44,674 bases of DNA from contig JASHOJ010000227.1 in the NCBI GenBank assembly GCA_030041155.1, forward strand, positions 1 to 44,674, written 5' to 3'. Origin of the DNA: Candidatus Binataceae bacterium (GTDB lineage Bacteria; Desulfobacterota; Binatia; Binatales; Binataceae). Positions 14,609 to 24,855 of this stretch are shown piece after piece. The position numbers and the translations under genes were made by a program. Position 1 is the stretch's first letter, and each line of letters starts with the position of its first letter. The notes beneath the pieces were generated by a model. It did not search any database and was not told the origin of the DNA. It saw nothing but the letters and a program-made list of their open reading frames with translations.

Positions 14609-14772
14609 TTCCCCCTGATACCCTGACGCAAATTGTAGGCTCGAAGATGGTGCTGCGAAACCGGGTCGGCGGCTTAGAAGACAACCGTTGACATCAGGTG
14701 TTCACAGGCCTTTGTGCGATGCGTCCACAGGTACGGCCTGCTATCTTTCAGAAGATTCCGCCTGGTTGCGCA

Positions 14773-15993
14773 ATGAAGGATCTGCTCAGGAAAGGATCGA
14801 TCGTGATCATGCTCGGCACCGGCGGGGTGGGAAAAACCACCGTTGCCGCCGCGCTGGGAATTGCGGGCGCGCAGGCGTATCTCGAAACCGCGCTTATCAC
14901 CGTTGATCCCGCTCCTCGCCTGCGCGACGCGCTGGGACTGGAACGCCTGGGCGGCAAGCCCGCGCGTCTTACGCAGCGCCATCTGCGATCCGCCGGGCTT
15001 CGAGCCGATCTGAAGCTCTCGGCGCTGATGCTCGACGTGAAGGGAGTATGGGACGCGATGGTCGAGCGGTTCGTTTCCGATCCGCAGGCCCGCAAACGAA
15101 TTCTGCAAAATCCATTCTATCGGAACCTCTCGGCGGAGTTCGCCGGCTCGGAGTCATTCGCCGCGCTGCAGGAGTTATACGAACTGCACCAGGCGGGCCG
15201 TTTCGATCTGGAGGTTGTTGATACGCCGCCTGCTGCATACGCGTTCGATTTTCTGGAAGCGCCAGCCCGATTCGTGCGCCTGTTCGATCTGCCAGGCGCG
15301 CGATGGCTCTTCACGCCGTCGCTCTCTGCGAGTCGAATCGCGATGAGGATAGCCAGCAATGCAGCGCGCTTCGTGGTGCGCGAGCTCGAGCGCTTTGCGG
15401 GTCGCGGGGTGCTCTCCACGATCGCGGATTTTTTTGCCGCCGCGGCCGAGTCTCTGGACGCGGTTGTGGACAGACTCCACAAGACGCAGGCGCTGATGCG
15501 GTCGCCGGCCGTGCGCTTCGTGATGGTGACGACCGCGGAGGAGGATCGTCTGCGGCAGGCGAGCGATTTAATCGCCGAGATGAAGAAGCGCGAACTTAAT
15601 CTCTCCGCGATCGTAATCAATCGCTTTCTCGACGAGCGCACCTGGCGCGAGACTGCGGAAGGCACCTCCGCGCTCGACTATCTGGGTGAAATCGCGAGGC
15701 TCCAGTCGAATTCGTCATCCGATGCCGCACCCGCACACGTATCGACGCCGCTTGTAGACTATCTTGCGTGCTATCGCGAGCGAACGCTCGGCGCGATCGA
15801 TCGGATTGGAGCATTTGCGCGCGATTTACCCGCTGGTATCAGACTCGCTTTCGCGCCGGAGATGGGCGACGGCGTGCCGGACTTGCGCGCGCTCGCGCAG
15901 GTCGCGGAATATATCGGGCGCGGCGCGGAATTCCTGCACTTGATCGAAAACGCCGCCGATTACGCCAGGCGCGCCGAAACAGTAGCAAACTGA
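14773..15993 (+). CDS. ArsA/GET3-like P-loop ATPase
   Basis: A 406-residue SIMIBI-class ATPase of the anion-transporting ATPase (ArsA-like) superfamily. From the chosen ATG the deviant Walker A GTGGVGKTT is at residues 15-23. The nucleotide-binding segment TALITVDPAPRLRDALG follows, then DLEVVDTPPAAYAFDFL (a switch II-like segment) and VTTAEEDRLRQA in the second half. Only one P-loop is present. It lacks an arsenite-pump context (no arsB or arsR) and, unlike tail-anchor targeting GET3, has no obvious hydrophobic-groove insert, so its cargo is unknown. It lies 70 bases ahead of cofG on the same strand and may be the first gene of that transcript. Confidence 0.75.
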   Translation: MKDLLRKGSIVIMLGTGGVGKTTVAAALGIAGAQAYLETALITVDPAPRLRDALGLERLGGKPARLTQRHLRSAGLRADLKLSALMLDVKGVWDAMVERFVSDPQARKRILQNPFYRNLSAEFAGSESFAALQELYELHQAGRFDLEVVDTPPAAYAFDFLEAPARFVRLFDLPGARWLFTPSLSASRIAMRIASNAARFVVRELERFAGRGVLSTIADFFAAAAESLDAVVDRLHKTQALMRSPAVRFVMVTTAEEDRLRQASDLIAEMKKRELNLSAIVINRFLDERTWRETAEGTSALDYLGEIARLQSNSSSDAAPAHVSTPLVDYLACYRERTLGAIDRIGAFARDLPAGIRLAFAPEMGDGVPDLRALAQVAEYIGRGAEFLHLIENAADYARRAETVAN

Positions 15994-16063: not shown

Positions 16064-17263
16064 ATGGCTTCCGTAGAGCTTTTATCCGCTTCCTCAGCTC
16101 GCGCGGCAGTGCCGATCCGCGAAGTGCTGGACCGCGCCTTGGCCGGTGATCGGCTTTCTGAGGCCGACGCGATCGCGCTTATCGAGAGCCCGGACTCAAG
16201 CCTTGCCGATCTGCTCGACTGCGCCGCCGAGTTGCGCGATCGCGGCAAGGGTCGCGAGGTCACCTACTCGCGCAAAGTCTTCCTGCCGATAACCAATCTA
16301 TGCCGTGATCGATGCACCTACTGCACGTTTCGCAAGGATCCCGGTGATCCCGGCGCGTGGACCATGATGCCGTCCGAGATTGCCGCGTGGTCGCGCCGCG
16401 GACGCGAGCTTGGATGCAAGGAAGCGCTGATGTGTCTTGGCGACAAGCCGGAGGTTGCGTTTAAGGAATATCGCGCAACGCTCGCGACACTCGGCGCACG
16501 CAGCACAATCGAGTACGTCGGCCGCGCGTGTGAGATCGCAATCGCGGAGGGGCTGCTGCCGCATACCAATGCCGGCCTTATGACGCGCGACGAGATGGCG
16601 ATGCTCAGGCCACTCAACGCCTCGATGGGACTGATGCTGGAATCCATTTCATCGCGCCTGCGTATGAGCGGCGGAGCGCATCAGGCCGCGCCCGATAAGG
16701 ATCCCGCGCTCAGGATGAAGATGATCGACGAGGCGGGCGAGCTGAAGATTCCGTTCACCAGCGGAATTCTGCTCGGAATTGGCGAAACCGTGGCCGAGCG
16801 CGCGCTTAGCCTGGTCGCGATCCGCGATTCGCATGAGCGCCACGGCCACATTCAGGAAGTGATAATCCAGAATTTCCGCGCCAAGCCTGAGATCGCGATG
16901 GCCGATGCGCCCGAGCCAGAGGCATTCGAGATGGCGCGCGCGATCGCAACCGCGCGCTTGGTGCTGGGACCCGCGATGAACGTGCAGGCGCCGCCGAATC
17001 TGTCGCCCGGCGAAATCGAGCTGTTTTTGCGCTCTGGAATAAACGATTGGGGCGGAATCTCGCCGCTTTCGAAGGACTACGTAAATCCCGAGGCGCCGTG
17101 GCCGCATCTCGAGCGCCTTGGTGAAAGGTGCGCTGGCGCGGGCTTTAAGCTCGGCGAGCGTCTGGCAATTTACCCGGAATATATTGATGACGAATGGCTC
17201 GACCCGGCGGTCGCGACCAATGTGCGCGCGATTTGGGAACGAACCCGGAGAGTCTCGGCATGA
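16064..17263 (+). CDS. cofG: FO synthase subunit CofG (radical SAM)
   Basis: 7,8-didemethyl-8-hydroxy-5-deazariboflavin synthase subunit 1. With CofH it builds the deazaflavin chromophore FO from tyrosine and a ribityl-diaminouracil. The 399-residue protein has the radical SAM cluster ligands C80, C84 and C87 in CRDRCTYC. Further family motifs are CLGDKPE, GLLPHTNAGLM, TSGILLGIGET, and NLSPGEIELFLRSGINDWGG near the end. It is a separate CofG rather than half of the fused FbiC seen in actinobacteria. Its stop overlaps the start of cofH by four bases (ATGA), so the two subunits are probably translationally coupled and made in equal amounts. Confidence 0.96.
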   Translation: MASVELLSASSARAAVPIREVLDRALAGDRLSEADAIALIESPDSSLADLLDCAAELRDRGKGREVTYSRKVFLPITNLCRDRCTYCTFRKDPGDPGAWTMMPSEIAAWSRRGRELGCKEALMCLGDKPEVAFKEYRATLATLGARSTIEYVGRACEIAIAEGLLPHTNAGLMTRDEMAMLRPLNASMGLMLESISSRLRMSGGAHQAAPDKDPALRMKMIDEAGELKIPFTSGILLGIGETVAERALSLVAIRDSHERHGHIQEVIIQNFRAKPEIAMADAPEPEAFEMARAIATARLVLGPAMNVQAPPNLSPGEIELFLRSGINDWGGISPLSKDYVNPEAPWPHLERLGERCAGAGFKLGERLAIYPEYIDDEWLDPAVATNVRAIWERTRRVSA

Positions 17264-18513
17264 ATTACGACGCGTGGAAAAACTGGGTCGACGAGATCGA
17301 AGCGACGCCGCTCGAAAGCCTGCTAGCGAGAGCCAATCCGCAGGTGCGCGCGCCGCTGGAGGGATGCCTTGAGCGCCGTGAAATCACGCCCGAAGAGGGA
17401 CTCGCGCTCTACACCGCGACCGGCGACGATCTGCGCGCGATGGTGAAGTGCGCGGATATAGCGCGCGCCGAAGACGTTGGCGACGAGGTCACCTACGTTG
17501 TCAACCGCAATCTCAATTTCACCAATATCTGCTTCGTCGGATGCCAGTTCTGCGGGTTCAAGCGCCAGCGCTGGGAATCCGATGCTTACGATCATTCCGA
17601 TGCCACGATTCTGGGCAAGCTCGCCGACGCGGTCGCGCGCGGCGCAACCGAAGTCTGCATGCAGGGCGGAATAAATCCCGACATGCCGGCGTTCAAATAT
17701 CGCGACCTGCTCGACACGATTAAGGGCGCGTACCCGCAAATCCATGTGCATGCGTTCTCGCCGATGGAGATCATGTACGGATCGCGCCGCACCCGCATGG
17801 AGTATCCGGAATATATCGCGATGCTGCGCGAGCACGGCCTCGGCTCGATTCCCGGCACCGCGGCGGAAATTCTGGATGACTCGGTGCGCGAGATTCTAAG
17901 CCATAAGAAGGTCGATGTAGCGGCGTGGGTCGATATAATCACCAGCGCGCACGCCTGCGGAGTCCCCACCACCTCGACCGTGATGTACGGTCATATCGAG
18001 ACGCCGCGGCAGGTCGTGAATCATCTCGATCTGATGCGCACGATCCAGAAAGAAACTCACGGCTTCACCGAGTTCGTGCCCCTGCGCTTCATCCATCAGA
18101 ACACCGTGATGTACCGCAAAGGGCTGGTGAAACCGATTCCGATGGGCGTGCTCGACTTCCAGATGTACGCGTTCTCGCGCGTGTTCTTGCGCGGCTGGAT
18201 CAATAATCTCCAGACCTCGTGGGTGAAGCTCGGAGTCGATCTTGCCGCGCTGACGCTCAAGGCTGGATGCAACGACTTCTCCGGCACCCTGATGGAGGAG
18301 AGCATCACCGCTCAGGCCGGCGGCGAGTCCGGCGAGTTCGTTCCGGTCGATTTGATCGAAGACAAGGCGCGTGAAATGGGCCGCGTCGCGGTAGAACGCA
18401 CCACCCTGTACAAGAAGCTCTACGGCAGAAAGGCACCCAATGGAGCGCGGCCGATCACCACGTCCTCTCCGCAACCAGATAGTCACGCTTGCGGGGGGAG
18501 TGGGTGCAGCTAA
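17260..18513 (+). CDS. cofH: FO synthase subunit CofH (radical SAM)
   Basis: Second radical SAM subunit of FO synthase; it adds tyrosine-derived hydroxybenzyl carbon to the ribityl-diaminouracil before CofG closes the ring. It has 417 residues from the ATG that overlaps the cofG stop. The cluster ligands C91, C95 and C98 lie in CFVGCQFC. Also seen are TEVCMQGGINPDMP, HAFSPMEIMYG and DFSGTLMEESITAQAGG, which are conserved in CofH and its relatives MqnC and MqnE. Its partner cofG directly upstream and cofD directly downstream separate it from the menaquinone (futalosine) enzymes. Its last 74 bases overlap the start of cofD in another frame. Confidence 0.96.
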   Translation: MNYDAWKNWVDEIEATPLESLLARANPQVRAPLEGCLERREITPEEGLALYTATGDDLRAMVKCADIARAEDVGDEVTYVVNRNLNFTNICFVGCQFCGFKRQRWESDAYDHSDATILGKLADAVARGATEVCMQGGINPDMPAFKYRDLLDTIKGAYPQIHVHAFSPMEIMYGSRRTRMEYPEYIAMLREHGLGSIPGTAAEILDDSVREILSHKKVDVAAWVDIITSAHACGVPTTSTVMYGHIETPRQVVNHLDLMRTIQKETHGFTEFVPLRFIHQNTVMYRKGLVKPIPMGVLDFQMYAFSRVFLRGWINNLQTSWVKLGVDLAALTLKAGCNDFSGTLMEESITAQAGGESGEFVPVDLIEDKAREMGRVAVERTTLYKKLYGRKAPNGARPITTSSPQPDSHACGGSGCS

Positions 18514-19402
18514 GTTTATCCGCGGGCTTGCCAGGCGTATTCCGGCCGAACGGCTGACCGTGATCGTCAACACCGGCGATGACGACGTCTTCTATGGCCT
18601 CCACGTCTCTCCCGATATCGACACGGTCACCTATACGCTGGCGGGCGTGGCGGGCGCACAGGGATGGGGCCGCGCCGATGAATCCTACGCGACTCTCGGT
18701 GCTCTCGACCGCTTCTATGGGCCGCATTGGTTTACCCTCGGTGACCGCGATTTCGCGACTCATCTTTACCGAACCGACAGGATGCGCGCCGGAACGAAGC
18801 TTTCGCGAATTACGGCGGAGATCGCTCGGGCGCTCGGCGTGCGGGCCAGGATATTGCCGATGAGCGACGATCCGGTGCGCACTTTCGTCAAGCTTCGCGG
18901 CCGCGCGCCGCTCCCGTTCCAGCAATATTTCGTTCGCGGTCGAGCGCGTGGCGCAGTTGAAAGGATCGAGCTGCGCGGCGCCACGTCCGCCCGGTCCGCG
19001 CCAGGAGTTATGGAGGCAATTCGCGGTGCGGGAGCGATAATCCTGGCGCCGTCGAATCCCTTCGTGTCGCTCGGACCGATATTCGCGCTTCGCGGCGTAC
19101 GTGCAGCGCTTAAACGCCGGCGCGCGCGAGTCGCCGCTGTCAGTCCGATAATCGGCGGCAAACCGGTAAAGGGACCGGCGGACAAGATGTTGCGCGGGCT
19201 CGGGATGCAGGTCTCCGCGCTGGGTGTCGCACGCCTCTACCGCGACATAGCGAGTGTTTTCGTTTTCGATAAAATCGATTCCGCGCTTGCGCCGGATATC
19301 GCCTCGCTCGGGATGCGTCCAGTCACGACCGACACGATAATGAGCAATCCCGCCAAAGCGGCGCGTCTCGCCGAAGTGGTTCTACGCGCACTGCCAGTGT
19401 AG
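18440..19402 (+). CDS. cofD: 2-phospho-L-lactate (or PEP) transferase CofD
   Basis: Transfers the phospholactyl or enolpyruvyl-phosphate group from a GDP/GTP-activated donor to FO, giving F420-0 or dehydro-F420-0. The 320-residue protein has the Rossmann-type start VTLAGGVGAAKF with GGVGAAK at residues 19-25, NTGDD at 44-48, LHVSPDIDTVTY just after, and later a NPFVSLGPI segment, all typical of CofD/FbiA. The only usable start is the ATG at 18440, inside cofH, with an AGAAAGG ribosome binding site in front. The overlap is therefore real and implies coupling. The enzyme that makes the donor (CofC/FbiD) is not in this window. Confidence 0.95.
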   Translation: MERGRSPRPLRNQIVTLAGGVGAAKFIRGLARRIPAERLTVIVNTGDDDVFYGLHVSPDIDTVTYTLAGVAGAQGWGRADESYATLGALDRFYGPHWFTLGDRDFATHLYRTDRMRAGTKLSRITAEIARALGVRARILPMSDDPVRTFVKLRGRAPLPFQQYFVRGRARGAVERIELRGATSARSAPGVMEAIRGAGAIILAPSNPFVSLGPIFALRGVRAALKRRRARVAAVSPIIGGKPVKGPADKMLRGLGMQVSALGVARLYRDIASVFVFDKIDSALAPDIASLGMRPVTTDTIMSNPAKAARLAEVVLRALPV

Positions 19403-19415
19403 GCTCTCATCCACG

Positions 19416-20168
19416 ATGCGCTCGATTACGCTTACCGCGATCGAAGGAATCCCGATGGTGAAAGCCGGCGACGATCTCGGCGCGCTGGTCGCCTCGGGAC
19501 TCGAGCACAGCGGCCTTAAGCTCGAGGCCGGCGATATCGTGGTTGTGTGCCAGAAGATCGTTTCCAAGTCGGAGGGCCGCCTGGTGAGCCTCAGGGAGAT
19601 CGAGCCCTCTGAATTCGCCTCCAACCTCGCACGGCGATGGGAAAAAGATCCGCGTGCGGTCGAGCTTGTGCTGAGGCAGACTGATCGTATTGTGCGCAAC
19701 GATCGCGGCGTAATTATCGTGGAAACGGGACCGGGATGGGTTTGCGCCAACGCCGGGATGGACGAATCCAACAGCCTAGCCGATGATACCGCCATCCTAT
19801 TGCCGCTCGATCCTGACCGCTCCGCGCGCGAGCTGCGCGACTCGCTGCGCAAGCGTTACGGGGCAGATGTCGCCGTGCTGGTGACAGACACTTTCGGACG
19901 GCCATGGCGCGACGGCCTGACCGAGGTTTGCCTGGGGATTGCCGGGATGAACGCGATGCTCGACTTGCGCGGTACCAGCGATCTCGGCGGACGCGAGCTG
20001 CATCACACGGTCGTCGCAATCGCGGATGAGCTTGCCTGCGCAGCAGGATTGTTGATGGAGAAAGCGGGCGCGATTCCCGCCGTGCTGGTGCGTGGCTACC
20101 CCTATCAACCGTTCGAAGGCAGCGCGAAGGTATTGATTCGACCTGCCGAAGCAGATTTATTCCGCTAA
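19416..20168 (+). CDS. cofE: Coenzyme F420-0:L-glutamate ligase CofE
   Basis: GTP-dependent ligase that adds the first and further glutamates to F420-0. At 250 residues it is a stand-alone CofE; the extra FMN-binding domain of the actinobacterial FbiB fusion is absent. Family motifs: AIEGIPMVKAGDDL at the start, GDIVVVCQKIVSKSEGR, GWVCANAGMDESN, LVTDTFGRPWRDGLTEVCLG and ADELACAAGLLMEKAG. The gene lies 13 bases after cofD and 3 bases before the polyprenyl synthase gene, in the middle of a compact operon. Confidence 0.96.
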   Translation: MRSITLTAIEGIPMVKAGDDLGALVASGLEHSGLKLEAGDIVVVCQKIVSKSEGRLVSLREIEPSEFASNLARRWEKDPRAVELVLRQTDRIVRNDRGVIIVETGPGWVCANAGMDESNSLADDTAILLPLDPDRSARELRDSLRKRYGADVAVLVTDTFGRPWRDGLTEVCLGIAGMNAMLDLRGTSDLGGRELHHTVVAIADELACAAGLLMEKAGAIPAVLVRGYPYQPFEGSAKVLIRPAEADLFR

Positions 20169-20171
20169 CCC

Positions 20172-21182
20172 GTGAAAAAAACCACCGCCATCGAGCTTGC
20201 CACCCGCCGCGGCACAGAACCGGCAAACCCTGCTCGTCCGGTGGAAGCGGATCTGGCGGCGGTCGAAGCAAAACTGACCCGCCTGCTGGATTCCAACGAG
20301 TCTCTGATTGCGGAAATCTGCCATTACCTGATCGACGGCGCGGGCAAGCGCCTACGCCCGACCTTCATCCTGCTGGTCTATCGCGCCTGCGGTGGAGGCG
20401 ACGATAAAGTCGAGGACGCAATCGACGCCGCGATCGCGCTGGAGCTGATTCATTCCGCCACGCTCTTGCACGACGACATTATCGATGGCGGCAAGCTGCG
20501 CCGCGGCAAGCCATCGGCTCTCGCCCGCTACGGGTTCGCTCCGACTCTGATTGCCGGCGACTATCTTTTCTGCCGTGCGTTTGAATTGTGCGGCCGTTTC
20601 GAGGAGCACCTGGTGCGAATCGCGGCCACGGCATGCATGGAGCTGACCGAGGGCGAGGTGATGGAGGGGCGGCTGCGCCATAGCGCCGCGGCCAGCCTTG
20701 CGGACTATCGCAAGGTTATCACCCGCAAAACCGCATCGTTGTTTTTCGCGGGCGGAAAAGTGGCCGCCGACCTGGCTGGGATGCCGGCGCGAGGCGTCAC
20801 CGCGATGGCCTCGCTTGGACTTTCGATGGGACTTGCGTTTCAGATGATCGACGACATCCTGGATATCCTCGGTCCCGAAGAAAAAATCGGCAAGCCGGTC
20901 GGATCCGATCTGCGCGAGGGTATTCCGTCGCTGCCGGTCGTGCTTGCGGTCGCCCACGATCCCGAGCTCAGGCAAATGTTTCTTGATGGCACCGAGATGT
21001 CGGGCGCGGCGTTCGAGCGCGCGCTCAAAATCCTGCGCGACCCGAAACTTATCGCGCGGGCGCGCGCGATGGCGGCGGCGGAGGTGAGGAACGCGCGCGA
21101 AATCGTGCGCGAGCTCAGACCTTCGATCTATCGCGACAGCCTGGCGATGCTCATCGACGAACAGATCGATCGCGAGGTCTAG
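20172..21182 (+). CDS. Long-chain all-trans polyprenyl diphosphate synthase
   Basis: Condenses isopentenyl diphosphate units to make a long isoprenoid chain, normally for quinone side chains. The 336-residue protein starts at a GTG three bases after cofE. It has both Asp-rich motifs: DDIID at residues 101-105 (in LLHDDIIDGG) and DDILD at 227-231, plus GKRLRP near 58-63 for IPP binding. The residues just before the first motif are small (Ser-Ala-Thr), which in this family goes with long products, about C35-C50; the exact length cannot be read. Its location in the F420 operon is unusual. The next gene continues in the same frame after its TAG stop. Confidence 0.92.
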   Translation: MKKTTAIELATRRGTEPANPARPVEADLAAVEAKLTRLLDSNESLIAEICHYLIDGAGKRLRPTFILLVYRACGGGDDKVEDAIDAAIALELIHSATLLHDDIIDGGKLRRGKPSALARYGFAPTLIAGDYLFCRAFELCGRFEEHLVRIAATACMELTEGEVMEGRLRHSAAASLADYRKVITRKTASLFFAGGKVAADLAGMPARGVTAMASLGLSMGLAFQMIDDILDILGPEEKIGKPVGSDLREGIPSLPVVLAVAHDPELRQMFLDGTEMSGAAFERALKILRDPKLIARARAMAAAEVRNAREIVRELRPSIYRDSLAMLIDEQIDREV

Positions 21183-21218
21183 TTCAGGCAGAGAGGGGAC
21201 TTTGCCGCGGCTTCATCG

Positions 21219-22412
21219 CTGATAATAGTCGGCGCCGGACCGGCTGGCGCACTGCTCGGCTATCGGCTGGCGCGCCGCGGCGTGAACGTCACTCTGCTCG
21301 AACGGCAGACCGACTTTGGCCGCGAATTTCGCGGCGAGATGCTGATGCCGTCGGGGATCGCGGCGCTCGAACGCGCGGGACTGGGCGAACAAGTTAAGCG
21401 CCTGCCGCAGACCGCGATCGCGGCGGTCGAGATCTTTCGTGGAACGAAAAAGATCGCTCAGATACCGTTCTTCAGCTTGCCGGTTGCCCCTACCGTCGTG
21501 CCTCAGCCGCCGATGCTCGAGATGATCACCGCGGAGGCGGCAAAATTCCCGAATTTCAAGCTCGAGCGCGGCACCACTGTGCGCGATCTGATAAGCGAGA
21601 GCGGCCGCGTTGTGGGCGTCCGCGCTGACACCGTGCACGGGCCGCGCGAATTTCGCGCTGATTTCCTGGTAGCAACCGACGGCCGCACCTCGGTGGTGCG
21701 TAAGCGGCTTGGCGCCGCGGTCGATCGAATCGAGCAGCGCTTCGACGTCGTGTGGACTCACGTTCCCGGCGAATTTCTCGATAGCCGCACCGCGCAATTC
21801 GTCTTTTGCCGGGGACATCTGTTTATCATCTATCCCTCGCCCGAAGGGCATCTCCAGATCGGATGGATAATTCAGAAGGGGCACTTTGGAGAACTGCGCA
21901 GTCTCGGCGGTGAAGGATGGTTTGCCGCGATGACGCCGTTTCTGCCGCGCGATTTGATCGAGTTTCTGAGCCCCAATCGCGAGGCGATGGCTCATCCCGT
22001 GCTGCTGGATGTCGTCTGCGATCGCCTGCGCGATTGGATGGCGCCTGGCGTGCTGCTTATCGGCGACGCGGCCCATCCGATGTCGCCGGTGGGAGCGCAG
22101 GGAATCAATATCGCGATGCGCGACGCGATCGTCACCGCCGCTCATCTGGGACGCGCGATGAGCGATAATGCGCCCGCGGAAAAAATCGACACGGCGGCGC
22201 GCGCGGTTGAGTCCGAGCGCGCGCCCGAGGTTGTGAGAATCCAGGAGCTGCAACAGCTCGGCCCTCGCCTCATGTTCACCGACACGCTTTACAGCCGCGC
22301 GATGATGAGTGCGCCGTTCGTATGGTTCGCGAAAAATTTTCTATCCGGGATTCTGATCCGCCGCCTTTCGCCGATGCTGAACGGCGCAACCGACCTCAAT
22401 CCTGAGGCATGA
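21219..22412 (+). CDS. Group A FAD-dependent monooxygenase (UbiH/PHBH-like), start uncertain
   Basis: Aromatic-ring or quinone-type hydroxylase. The GxGxxG flavin motif (IIVGAGPAGALLGYRLARRG) begins at 21222, before the first GTG (21282), so the gene must start earlier. The only usual codon between the preceding TAG (21180) and that motif is CTG at 21219; no ATG, GTG or TTG exists in frame. AGAGGGGA at 21192-21199 could be a ribosome binding site, though 19 bases away. Further motifs are FLVATDGRTSVVRKRLG (the DG motif) and LLIGDAAHPMSPVGAQGIN (the GD motif), both diagnostic of this class. The substrate is unknown. Adjacency to a polyprenyl synthase hints at a prenylated quinone or other isoprenoid; that is inference. 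Confidence 0.8.
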   Translation: MIIVGAGPAGALLGYRLARRGVNVTLLERQTDFGREFRGEMLMPSGIAALERAGLGEQVKRLPQTAIAAVEIFRGTKKIAQIPFFSLPVAPTVVPQPPMLEMITAEAAKFPNFKLERGTTVRDLISESGRVVGVRADTVHGPREFRADFLVATDGRTSVVRKRLGAAVDRIEQRFDVVWTHVPGEFLDSRTAQFVFCRGHLFIIYPSPEGHLQIGWIIQKGHFGELRSLGGEGWFAAMTPFLPRDLIEFLSPNREAMAHPVLLDVVCDRLRDWMAPGVLLIGDAAHPMSPVGAQGINIAMRDAIVTAAHLGRAMSDNAPAEKIDTAARAVESERAPEVVRIQELQQLGPRLMFTDTLYSRAMMSAPFVWFAKNFLSGILIRRLSPMLNGATDLNPEA

Positions 22413-22512: not shown

Positions 22513-22893
22513 ATGACGGCGGCATCGCTAAACCTGCGGATTCCCCGAAGATCCCTGGCAAATGCCGCCAGCCGACTCGCATCCCCGCTCGTCGATAGGT
22601 CACAAATAACTGATTTTGCAGGAGTTTTTCGCGGTCGCGAGCTTACCCACAAAACCCGCCGATTAGCCTCGGAAATCGCCCCGATTGACTCCCTGGTGGG
22701 CGGCGGAATCGCTCGCGGACGCCTGAGCGAAATTATCGGACGTCCGGGCAGCGGTCGAACCTCGCTTGCGGCCGCGTTCGCCGCCGCCGCTACCCGCCAC
22801 GGCGAGATTGCCTCATGGTTGGAAGCTTCGGATGCGTTCGATCCTCCTAGTATCGCGGCGGCGGGCGTCGATCTATCGCGCTTGCTATGGGCC
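22513..22893 (+). pseudogene. imuA: Remnant of imuA (RecA-like mutagenesis accessory protein)
   Basis: The first 127 codons match the N-terminal half of ImuA: APIDSLVGGGIARGRLSEII, a P-loop GRPGSGRTSL (Arg in place of the usual Lys), and SDAFDPPSIAAAGVDLSRLL. The sequence then passes in frame, at about 22891-22910, into dnaE2 sequence. The second half of imuA, any imuB, and the PHP domain of dnaE2 are therefore gone. In many bacteria imuA-imuB-dnaE2 form one SOS-induced translesion cassette. The upstream 100 bases are AT-rich and may keep the old promoter; no LexA box was recognised there. Confidence 0.75.
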
Positions 22894-24855
22894 GCGATCA
22901 CTATGAGCTGTATCCGGCTCAAGACCACGCTCGAGGAGGCCGTACGCACGTTGTGGGTCAACAGCAACCGTCACCTGAAACCGCCCGCCGAGAAGGTCGC
23001 CCTGTTTCGCGATCTTCCCGGCGCGATCGCCGCGACCCGCGCAATCGCTGATCAATGCGAATTCATTCTGACATGGGCTATCGTTTTCCCGATTATCCGC
23101 TGCCGCCGGGTGAAACCACCGACAGCTACTTGCGAATCCTCACTTACGCCGGCGCGCGAGAGAAATGGGGCGCAAAGCTCGACGAGCGCACGCGCCGCCA
23201 GCTCGAGCACGAGCTTTCCGTAATCGAGCAACTAAAGCTCGCGGGCTACTTTTTGATTGTATGGGATATCGTTCAGTTCTGCCGCGAAAGCCGCATCATG
23301 GTGCAGGGACGCGGATCGGCGGCCAACAGCGCGGTCTGCTACGCGCTTGGAATCACCGCGGTCGACGCGATTAACATGGACCTGCTGTTCGAGCGTTTTC
23401 TTTCCGAGGAACGCGGCGAATGGCCCGATATCGATCTCGATCTGCCAAGCGGCGACGAGCGCGAACAGGTTATCCAGTATGTTTACCGGCGCTACGGAGA
23501 TCGCGGCGCCGCGATGACCGCGAATGTGATCACGTACCGCACCAAAAGCGCGGTGCGCGAGGTCGGCAAGGTGCTGGGCTTCACCGCAGAGCAGGTCGAC
23601 AGGCTCGCCAAGCTCAACCAGGTTTACGAATTCCGCGACCGTCACGACGATATCGTCGAGCTTCTGCGGCGCGGCGGAATCGATGCCGAGGCGCCGCGAA
23701 TCCTGATGCTGGTCGATCTCGTCCGGCGCATCCAGAACGCGCCGCGCCATCTTGGGCAGCATAGCGGCGGAATGGTAATTGCCGCACAGCCGCTTGACGA
23801 GATCGTGTCGCTGGAGCCGGCCACGATGCCGGGGCGGGTCGTGCTCCAGTGGGACAAGGACGATTGCGCCGACCTGGGGATAATCAAGATTGACCTGCTC
23901 GGACTAGGGATGTTGGCGGTGTTGGAAGAGGCGATCGCTACGCTTCATGAGCGCCAGGGCGTCGGGATCGACCTTGCGCATCTGCCGCCCGACGACCCCG
24001 ACGTGTATGCGATGCTCAGGCGGGCGGACACGGTCGGAGTTTTCCAGATCGAAAGTCGCGCCCAGATGGCGACGCTGCCGCGGATGAAACCGGAGCGCTT
24101 TTATGACCTGGTGGTCGAGGTAGCGATAATCCGGCCGGGACCGATTGTCGGCAAAATGGTGCATCCGTACCTGGATCGCCGCAACGGGCGCGCTCCCGTC
24201 ACATATCCGCATCCCGCTCTTGAGCCGATATTGCGCCGCACGCTCGGAGTGCCGCTGTTCCAGGAGCAACTGCTTCGTATCGCGATGGCAGTGGGTGGGT
24301 TCACCGGCGGCGAGGCCGAAGAACTGCGCCGCGCGATGGGCTTCAAGCGATCGGTGGAGCGGATGCAAAAAATCGATGCGCGACTGCGCGCCGGGATGCT
24401 GCGCAACGGGATTTCCGGCGCTCTGGCGGACAGTATCGCGCGGTCAATAACCTCATTCGCGCTCTATGGATTTCCTGAGTCGCACGCCGCGAGCTTCGCG
24501 TTTATTGCATACGCGTCGGCCTACCTTAAGTGTCATTATTCCGCGGCTTTTTTCGCGGCGATGCTCAACTGCTATCCGCTCGGCTTTTATCATCCTTCAA
24601 CCCTGGTCAAGGATGCTGAACGCCGCGGCGTCCTGGTGTTGCCGATCGACGTTGCGGTGTCGGATTGGAACTGCACGCTCGAACCGCATCGCCTCCGACG
24701 TGTTTCAGAAAAATCGCATGCTCCTGCGCAGCGTGGGAATCCTATACGCCGAAGGATGGCTGCAACGCGTCGATGGCGTCACGGCGATTCGCGCCCGTCG
24801 ATTTGGCGAGCTGAAACTGCCGAGCGCGACACCACCGTCGCACGACTTTCGCTAG
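22894..24855 (+). pseudogene. dnaE2: Degenerate dnaE2/imuC (error-prone DNA polymerase III alpha)
   Basis: Three pieces of one DnaE2 gene. Piece 1 (about 22894-23065) begins just after where the PHP domain should end (LKTTLEEAVRTL, NRHLKPPAEKVALFRDLP). A one-base frameshift near 23065-23075 leads to piece 2 (to about 24690), which has the polymerase core: QGRGSAANSAVCYALGITAVD, PDIDLDLPSGDERE with catalytic Asp residues, LGQHSGGMVI, QWDKDDCADLGIIKIDLLGL and YGFPESHAASFAF. After DWNCTLEP about 350 residues are missing and the frame changes. Piece 3 (about 24690-24855) is the true C-terminus (DVFQKNRMLLRSVGILYAEG to SHDFR, stop 24855). The frame of piece 2 reads on into the next gene only because its stop was lost. 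Confidence 0.85.

Follow-up and report, generated by a model that had tools for sequence, protein, structure and literature searches.

A cofG-cofH-cofD-cofE cluster followed by a long-chain polyprenyl diphosphate synthase gene in the Binataceae

The gene for a long-chain polyprenyl diphosphate synthase (PPS) stands directly behind cofE, the last gene of a four-gene F420 biosynthesis cluster, in the Binataceae, a family of uncultured bacteria from soil. Adjacency was counted across 148 Binatia genomes: cofE and PPS were neighbours in all 38 Binataceae genomes carrying both genes and in 0/95 such genomes from other Binatia families, while outside this count lay seven genomes with PPS only, five with CofE only and three genomes of the family with neither. 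An association of 38/38 within the family vs. 0/95 outside it is not a matter of chance. As gene order, this extension of the F420 operon is well supported by the compared sequences, although it is unproven as physiology. We consider it likely that cofG, cofH, cofD, cofE and PPS form a Binataceae unit serving F420 and a probable menaquinone tail, which arose through one relocation and has been kept for co-expression; the unit is probably a lineage-specific operon in which two redox-carrier pathways are joined.

The cof genes and the F420 pathway

The window, that is, the whole analysed stretch of 44,674 nucleotides, corresponds to contig 320 in a genome of 4.5 Mb (94% complete, 4% contamination) from the class Binatia, family Binataceae, and an Rfam scan of it returned one tRNA. 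The four cof genes run in one direction, head to tail, and overlap or nearly touch one another (Table 1), in agreement with the sequence-only reading, which had described them as contiguous and partly overlapping. All four products scored above the curated NCBIfam cut-offs, with 446 bits for CofG (TIGR03550, cut-off 213), 444 bits for CofH (TIGR03551, cut-off 374), 295 bits for CofD (TIGR01819, cut-off 257) and 272 bits for CofE (TIGR01916, cut-off 181). The cofH gene starts at ATG 17260 in an ATGA overlap with the cofG stop, the scanned frame beginning three bases downstream of this ATG, and 74 bp are shared between cofH and cofD.

Table 1. Coordinates of the conserved genes and of the downstream monooxygenase frame in the window
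Gene	Product	Position	Strand	Model
cofG	7,8-didemethyl-8-hydroxy-5-deazariboflavin (FO) synthase subunit, radical SAM	16064..17263	+	TIGR03550
cofH	5-amino-6-ribitylaminouracil--tyrosine hydroxyphenyl transferase	17260..18513	+	TIGR03551
cofD	phosphoacid transferase making F420-0	18440..19402	+	TIGR01819
cofE	F420-0:glutamate ligase, single domain	19416..20168	+	TIGR01916
PPS	long-chain all-trans polyprenyl diphosphate synthase, GTG start	20172..21182	+	PF00348, 216 bits
Monooxygenase	group A FAD monooxygenase, open frame, outside conserved unit	21183..22412	+	PF01494, 144 bits

The actinobacterial FbiC/FbiB plan serves the same pathway, but in the window CofG and CofH are separate proteins and CofE, with 250 aa and one Pfam domain, is devoid of the nitroreductase domain of FbiB, so that the contrast drawn in the sequence-only reading holds. 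This split plan is not new, since separate CofG, CofH or CofE have already been described in archaea and some bacteria (PMC8498797). The cofG/cofH/cofD/cofE clusters of these organisms encode the same enzymes as the Binataceae unit, and the G-H-D-E order was also present in 10/13 loci of other Binatia families and in Marinobacterium, Halopseudomonas and Marinobacter loci among the best 80 of 577. In contrast to such clusters, the Binataceae unit carries PPS at its 3' end, and the cofC gene of the source genome lies on another contig.

This cofC gene, which the sequence-only reading had taken to be absent, was recovered by a PF01983 profile search of the source genome (G000:C31:1592-2218), and its product scored 115.8 bits against TIGR03552 (cut-off 105), which rules out a cofC-less F420 pathway. 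CofC was found in 36/38 relatives and in 33/34 of those with ≥90% completeness and ≤5% contamination. In other Binatia families, CofC matches were weak in G030 and G036, and none was obtained in G031. As predicted from these genes, the F420 pathway of the source genome is ordinary and complete: CofH and CofG would convert tyrosine and 5-amino-6-ribitylaminouracil to the deazaflavin FO, CofC together with CofD would attach the phosphoacid link, and CofE would add glutamates to give F420.

Several further features of these loci were recorded. The source-genome cofC precedes genes resembling an Mla-type transport cluster (named by reading the sequences), and in two genomes of another Binatia family, f2 (G024 and G037; loci L056 and L068) cofC lies between cofD and cofE, with cofH not found in the cluster. 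Directly upstream of cofG in the window, at 14698-15993, is an ArsA/GET3-like ATPase whose best match was the mycobacterial BagB model (196 bits, below the cut-off of 521) and which had no counterpart ahead of cofG in relatives when 17 upstream loci were compared.

Conservation and history of the cofE-PPS pair

In the window, 3 nt separate the cofE stop from the PPS start codon, the spacing given by the sequence-only reading. A candidate PPS start was present 2-47 nt past the cofE stop in 22/23 loci; in L041 (G009), one candidate overlaps cofE by 4 nt and another lies at 83 nt. All five genes occurred in order in 16 of the 22 Binataceae relatives read in detail, a count from which overlapping cross-hits were removed (a separate count puts the five-gene loci of the family at 17), and five loci were cut by contig ends. 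L041 was the exception: it keeps cofD-cofE-PPS, and neither cofG nor cofH was present within 8.4 kb upstream. The adjacency spans 16 genera with short spacing, while the outer neighbours are scrambled, a simple gene caller giving 12 gene families upstream in 17 loci and 18 downstream in 21. This scrambling of the flanking genes suggested that the cofG-cofH-cofD-cofE-PPS block itself has been maintained.

The sequence-only reading had held that relatives with F420 genes unlinked to the synthase would point to chance adjacency. Such relatives made up all 95 genomes counted in other Binatia families, but none was seen among the 38 Binataceae genomes; the pair is thus conserved inside the family and not elsewhere in the class. 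Long-chain PPS itself was present in 140/148 Binatia genomes. Where unlinked, it was often located beside moaA, mrp, coaBC or a gene resembling myo-inositol-phosphate synthase (14 loci outside the family, with gene names assigned from the sequences). When cofE and PPS shared a contig in these families, they were 77-120 kb apart in 5/8 pairs and 2.7-2.8 Mb apart in two, and in the eighth (G063) they would be separated by ~0.1 Mb if its single contig is circular.

Phylogenetic analysis of 89 sequences with IQ-TREE placed the 23 cofE-linked PPS in one clade (100/100), which nests in a clade of 37 Binatia PPS (99/99) including unlinked PPS of other families. Nearest to the linked PPS were two PPS of family f6, although this join was weaker (96/73), and the tree has some long branches, including that of the outgroup row og_L254 beside the Binatia clade. 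Since PPS is a class-wide ortholog that is placed elsewhere in other families, it moved behind cofE once. This single origin is shown by the sequences, as are the gene identities, the conservation of the pair and the location of cofC away from the cluster; co-transcription, a menaquinone end product and retention for co-expression are proposals. The simplest history would be one relocation of the ancestral long-chain synthase of the class into the cof operon, in the Binataceae ancestor. Because such a move is a single event, the 38 adjacent pairs are not 38 independent observations.

Two other accounts of the pair were rejected. Arrival of PPS by horizontal transfer together with the cof genes is ruled out by the nesting of linked PPS with Binatia PPS. 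A general bacterial cofE-PPS pair was rejected as well: among the best 80 of 577 loci from named genomes, many of them with flanks cut by contig ends, the loci with PPS were L110-L113, all from Binataceae or near kin, against 0/76 of the others. The position of PPS behind cofE is new, and no paper combining F420 biosynthesis, cofG, cofH and polyprenyl was found in the literature accessible to us.

The synthase, its probable product and the downstream monooxygenase

PPS has a DDxxD motif preceded by small residues (ELIHSATLLHDDIID), and the residues before DDxxD inform prenyl chain length. The protein resembles IspB-type long-chain synthases, its best relatives of solved structure being octa-, nona-, decaprenyl and solanesyl diphosphate synthases with near full-length matches, but it differs from them in its gene position and in falling short of the cut-offs of all NCBIfam models listed. 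PF00348 matches numbered 1 to 5 per genome in the 38 relatives and 2 in the source genome; among the fetched PF00348 proteins, one type carried DDxxD preceded by small residues, the others belonging to different types. The second PF00348 gene of the source genome carries DDxxxxD, a motif of short-chain enzymes, and no long-chain paralog of PPS is present there.

The source genome also encodes MenA (TIGR00751, 147 bits vs. a cut-off of 102). Four of its five PF01040 (UbiA-superfamily) matches were scanned and proved to be CyoE (heme o synthase), MenA and two DPPR-synthase-like proteins, with no 4-hydroxybenzoate UbiA among these four in this 94% complete genome; the fifth is a fragment which by eye resembles a second heme o synthase copy. 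The presence of MenA and the lack of a 4-hydroxybenzoate UbiA in this set make the menaquinone tail the likeliest predicted end product of PPS. The enzyme would supply a long all-trans prenyl diphosphate, which MenA would most likely join to the menaquinone head group, and the F420 and menaquinone-tail pathways would have no chemical step in common.

Two additional observations concern the same superfamily. The two heme o synthase genes are nearly identical and lie on different contigs (L228 and L232; C265 and C188), one being the fragment, a duplication that could stem from mixed strains or from the 4% contamination. The two DPPR-synthase-like proteins (L230 and L231; C281 and C213) match decaprenyl-phosphate phosphoribosyltransferase, which is known from mycobacteria as an enzyme of arabinan-precursor synthesis.

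The monooxygenase behind PPS, regarded in the sequence-only reading as a UbiH-like extension of the operon, adjoins PPS in just 2/23 loci, the window and L047, and a five-plus-one operon that includes it is thereby ruled out. It is missing from the same place in the same-genus genome G001, where no remnant was found, and the relatives ranking next within the class are located ~21 kb from cofE in G013 and on contigs without CofE in G036, G028 and G033. The protein shares the group A FAD monooxygenase type with the UbiH/UbiF/COQ6 hydroxylases, but it reached only 87.1 bits against TIGR01988 (cut-off 224.65) and was nearer to PRK06185-type FAD oxidoreductases, also below the cut-off; by cut-off it is not a UbiH. 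The listed GTG 21282 comes only after its dinucleotide-binding motif, and no in-frame ATG, GTG or TTG precedes this motif; the L047 ortholog has an ATG start.

A decayed ImuA-ImuB-DnaE2 mutasome cassette was noticed behind the operon (window 22513-24853). Compared with the same-genus locus L034 (8535-1982), ~3.3 kb is missing (the end of imuA, imuB and the start of dnaE2), as is another ~0.9 kb inside dnaE2, and the remainder is read into a PEP-mutase-like frame.

Competing explanations and F420 across the Binatia

The source genome has 50 PF00296 (luciferase-like) matches in 4.5 Mb, and many of the best 30 (L277-L306) fit mycobacterial F420 models. Classed by an E-value threshold instead of curated cut-offs, 13 of these 30 matched TIGR03619 at E 1e-40 or better, fewer matched other F420-named LLM models, and two matched FMN alkanesulfonate monooxygenase. 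In addition, 2/6 matches to the Rv1155-type TIGR03618 exceeded the cut-off. The genome is likely to encode many F420 users, as predicted from these matches, and none of them lies inside the cof-PPS unit.

Retention of the block is most likely explained by its transcription and translation as one unit, as we propose; a scan of the region for sigma-70-like promoters, which tests little in this lineage, found 0 vs. 2.0 expected by chance. A more far-reaching explanation is that the unit sets the supply of F420 and menaquinone together because F420H2 serves as electron donor to the menaquinone pool, by analogy with Ddn of Mycobacterium tuberculosis, proposed to be an F420H2-dependent menaquinone reductase (PMC3567243). 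The family-wide linkage amid scrambled flanks, the presence of MenA and the abundance of F420-type enzymes described above would all be consistent with such coupling, but the unit itself contains no F420:quinone reductase and F420 is made in other Binatia families without the cofE-PPS link, and we regard this coupling as unlikely. Slightly less likely again is the reading in which Binataceae control both supplies as one unit because F420H2 feeds the menaquinone pool; if true, an uncultured environmental phylum would possess a bacterial F420-to-quinone redox module that can be read from its gene order.

Alternatively, PPS may have landed behind cofE and stayed there since breaking an operon is costly, with co-expression bringing no benefit. 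The single origin of the linked PPS would fit, as would the 77-120 kb spacing in 5/8 same-contig pairs of other families, since genes at that distance could have been joined by local rearrangement. The pair was nevertheless kept at short spacing over 16 genera while nearly every outer neighbour changed, which makes neutral retention improbable in our view. A dedicated product, in which PPS, with the monooxygenase, would make a special prenylated compound for an F420-dependent reductase, would fit only the way the genes are arranged in the window and L047. Against it, PPS is the ortholog of a class-wide synthase with no long-chain paralog in the source genome, the monooxygenase is adjacent in 2/23 loci and the unit encodes no F420-dependent enzyme, and we give this explanation very little credence. 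The suggestion in the sequence-only reading of a reductase acting on a prenylated compound fails for the last of these reasons. Its other suggestion, that the cell makes F420 and an isoprenoid quinone side by side, gains from the gene organisation, namely the family-wide pair, the class-wide PPS ortholog and MenA, but had to be separated from the monooxygenase, the absence of cofC and the prenyl-acting reductase.

CofE was found in 138/148 Binatia genomes and in 94/95 of those with ≥90% completeness and ≤5% contamination, and F420 synthesis is predicted from genes to be close to universal in the class. In the literature accessible to us on Binatota, Binatia and Desulfobacterota_B, no paper reporting widespread F420 synthesis was found, and the available main text of the principal genomic survey of the phylum holds no occurrence of 'F420' (PMC8262859). 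This class-wide F420 synthesis may be a more useful result than the cofE-PPS operon. For the Binataceae, the linkage of the cof genes throughout the family to what is probably a quinone-tail enzyme offers a simple test of F420/quinone co-regulation.
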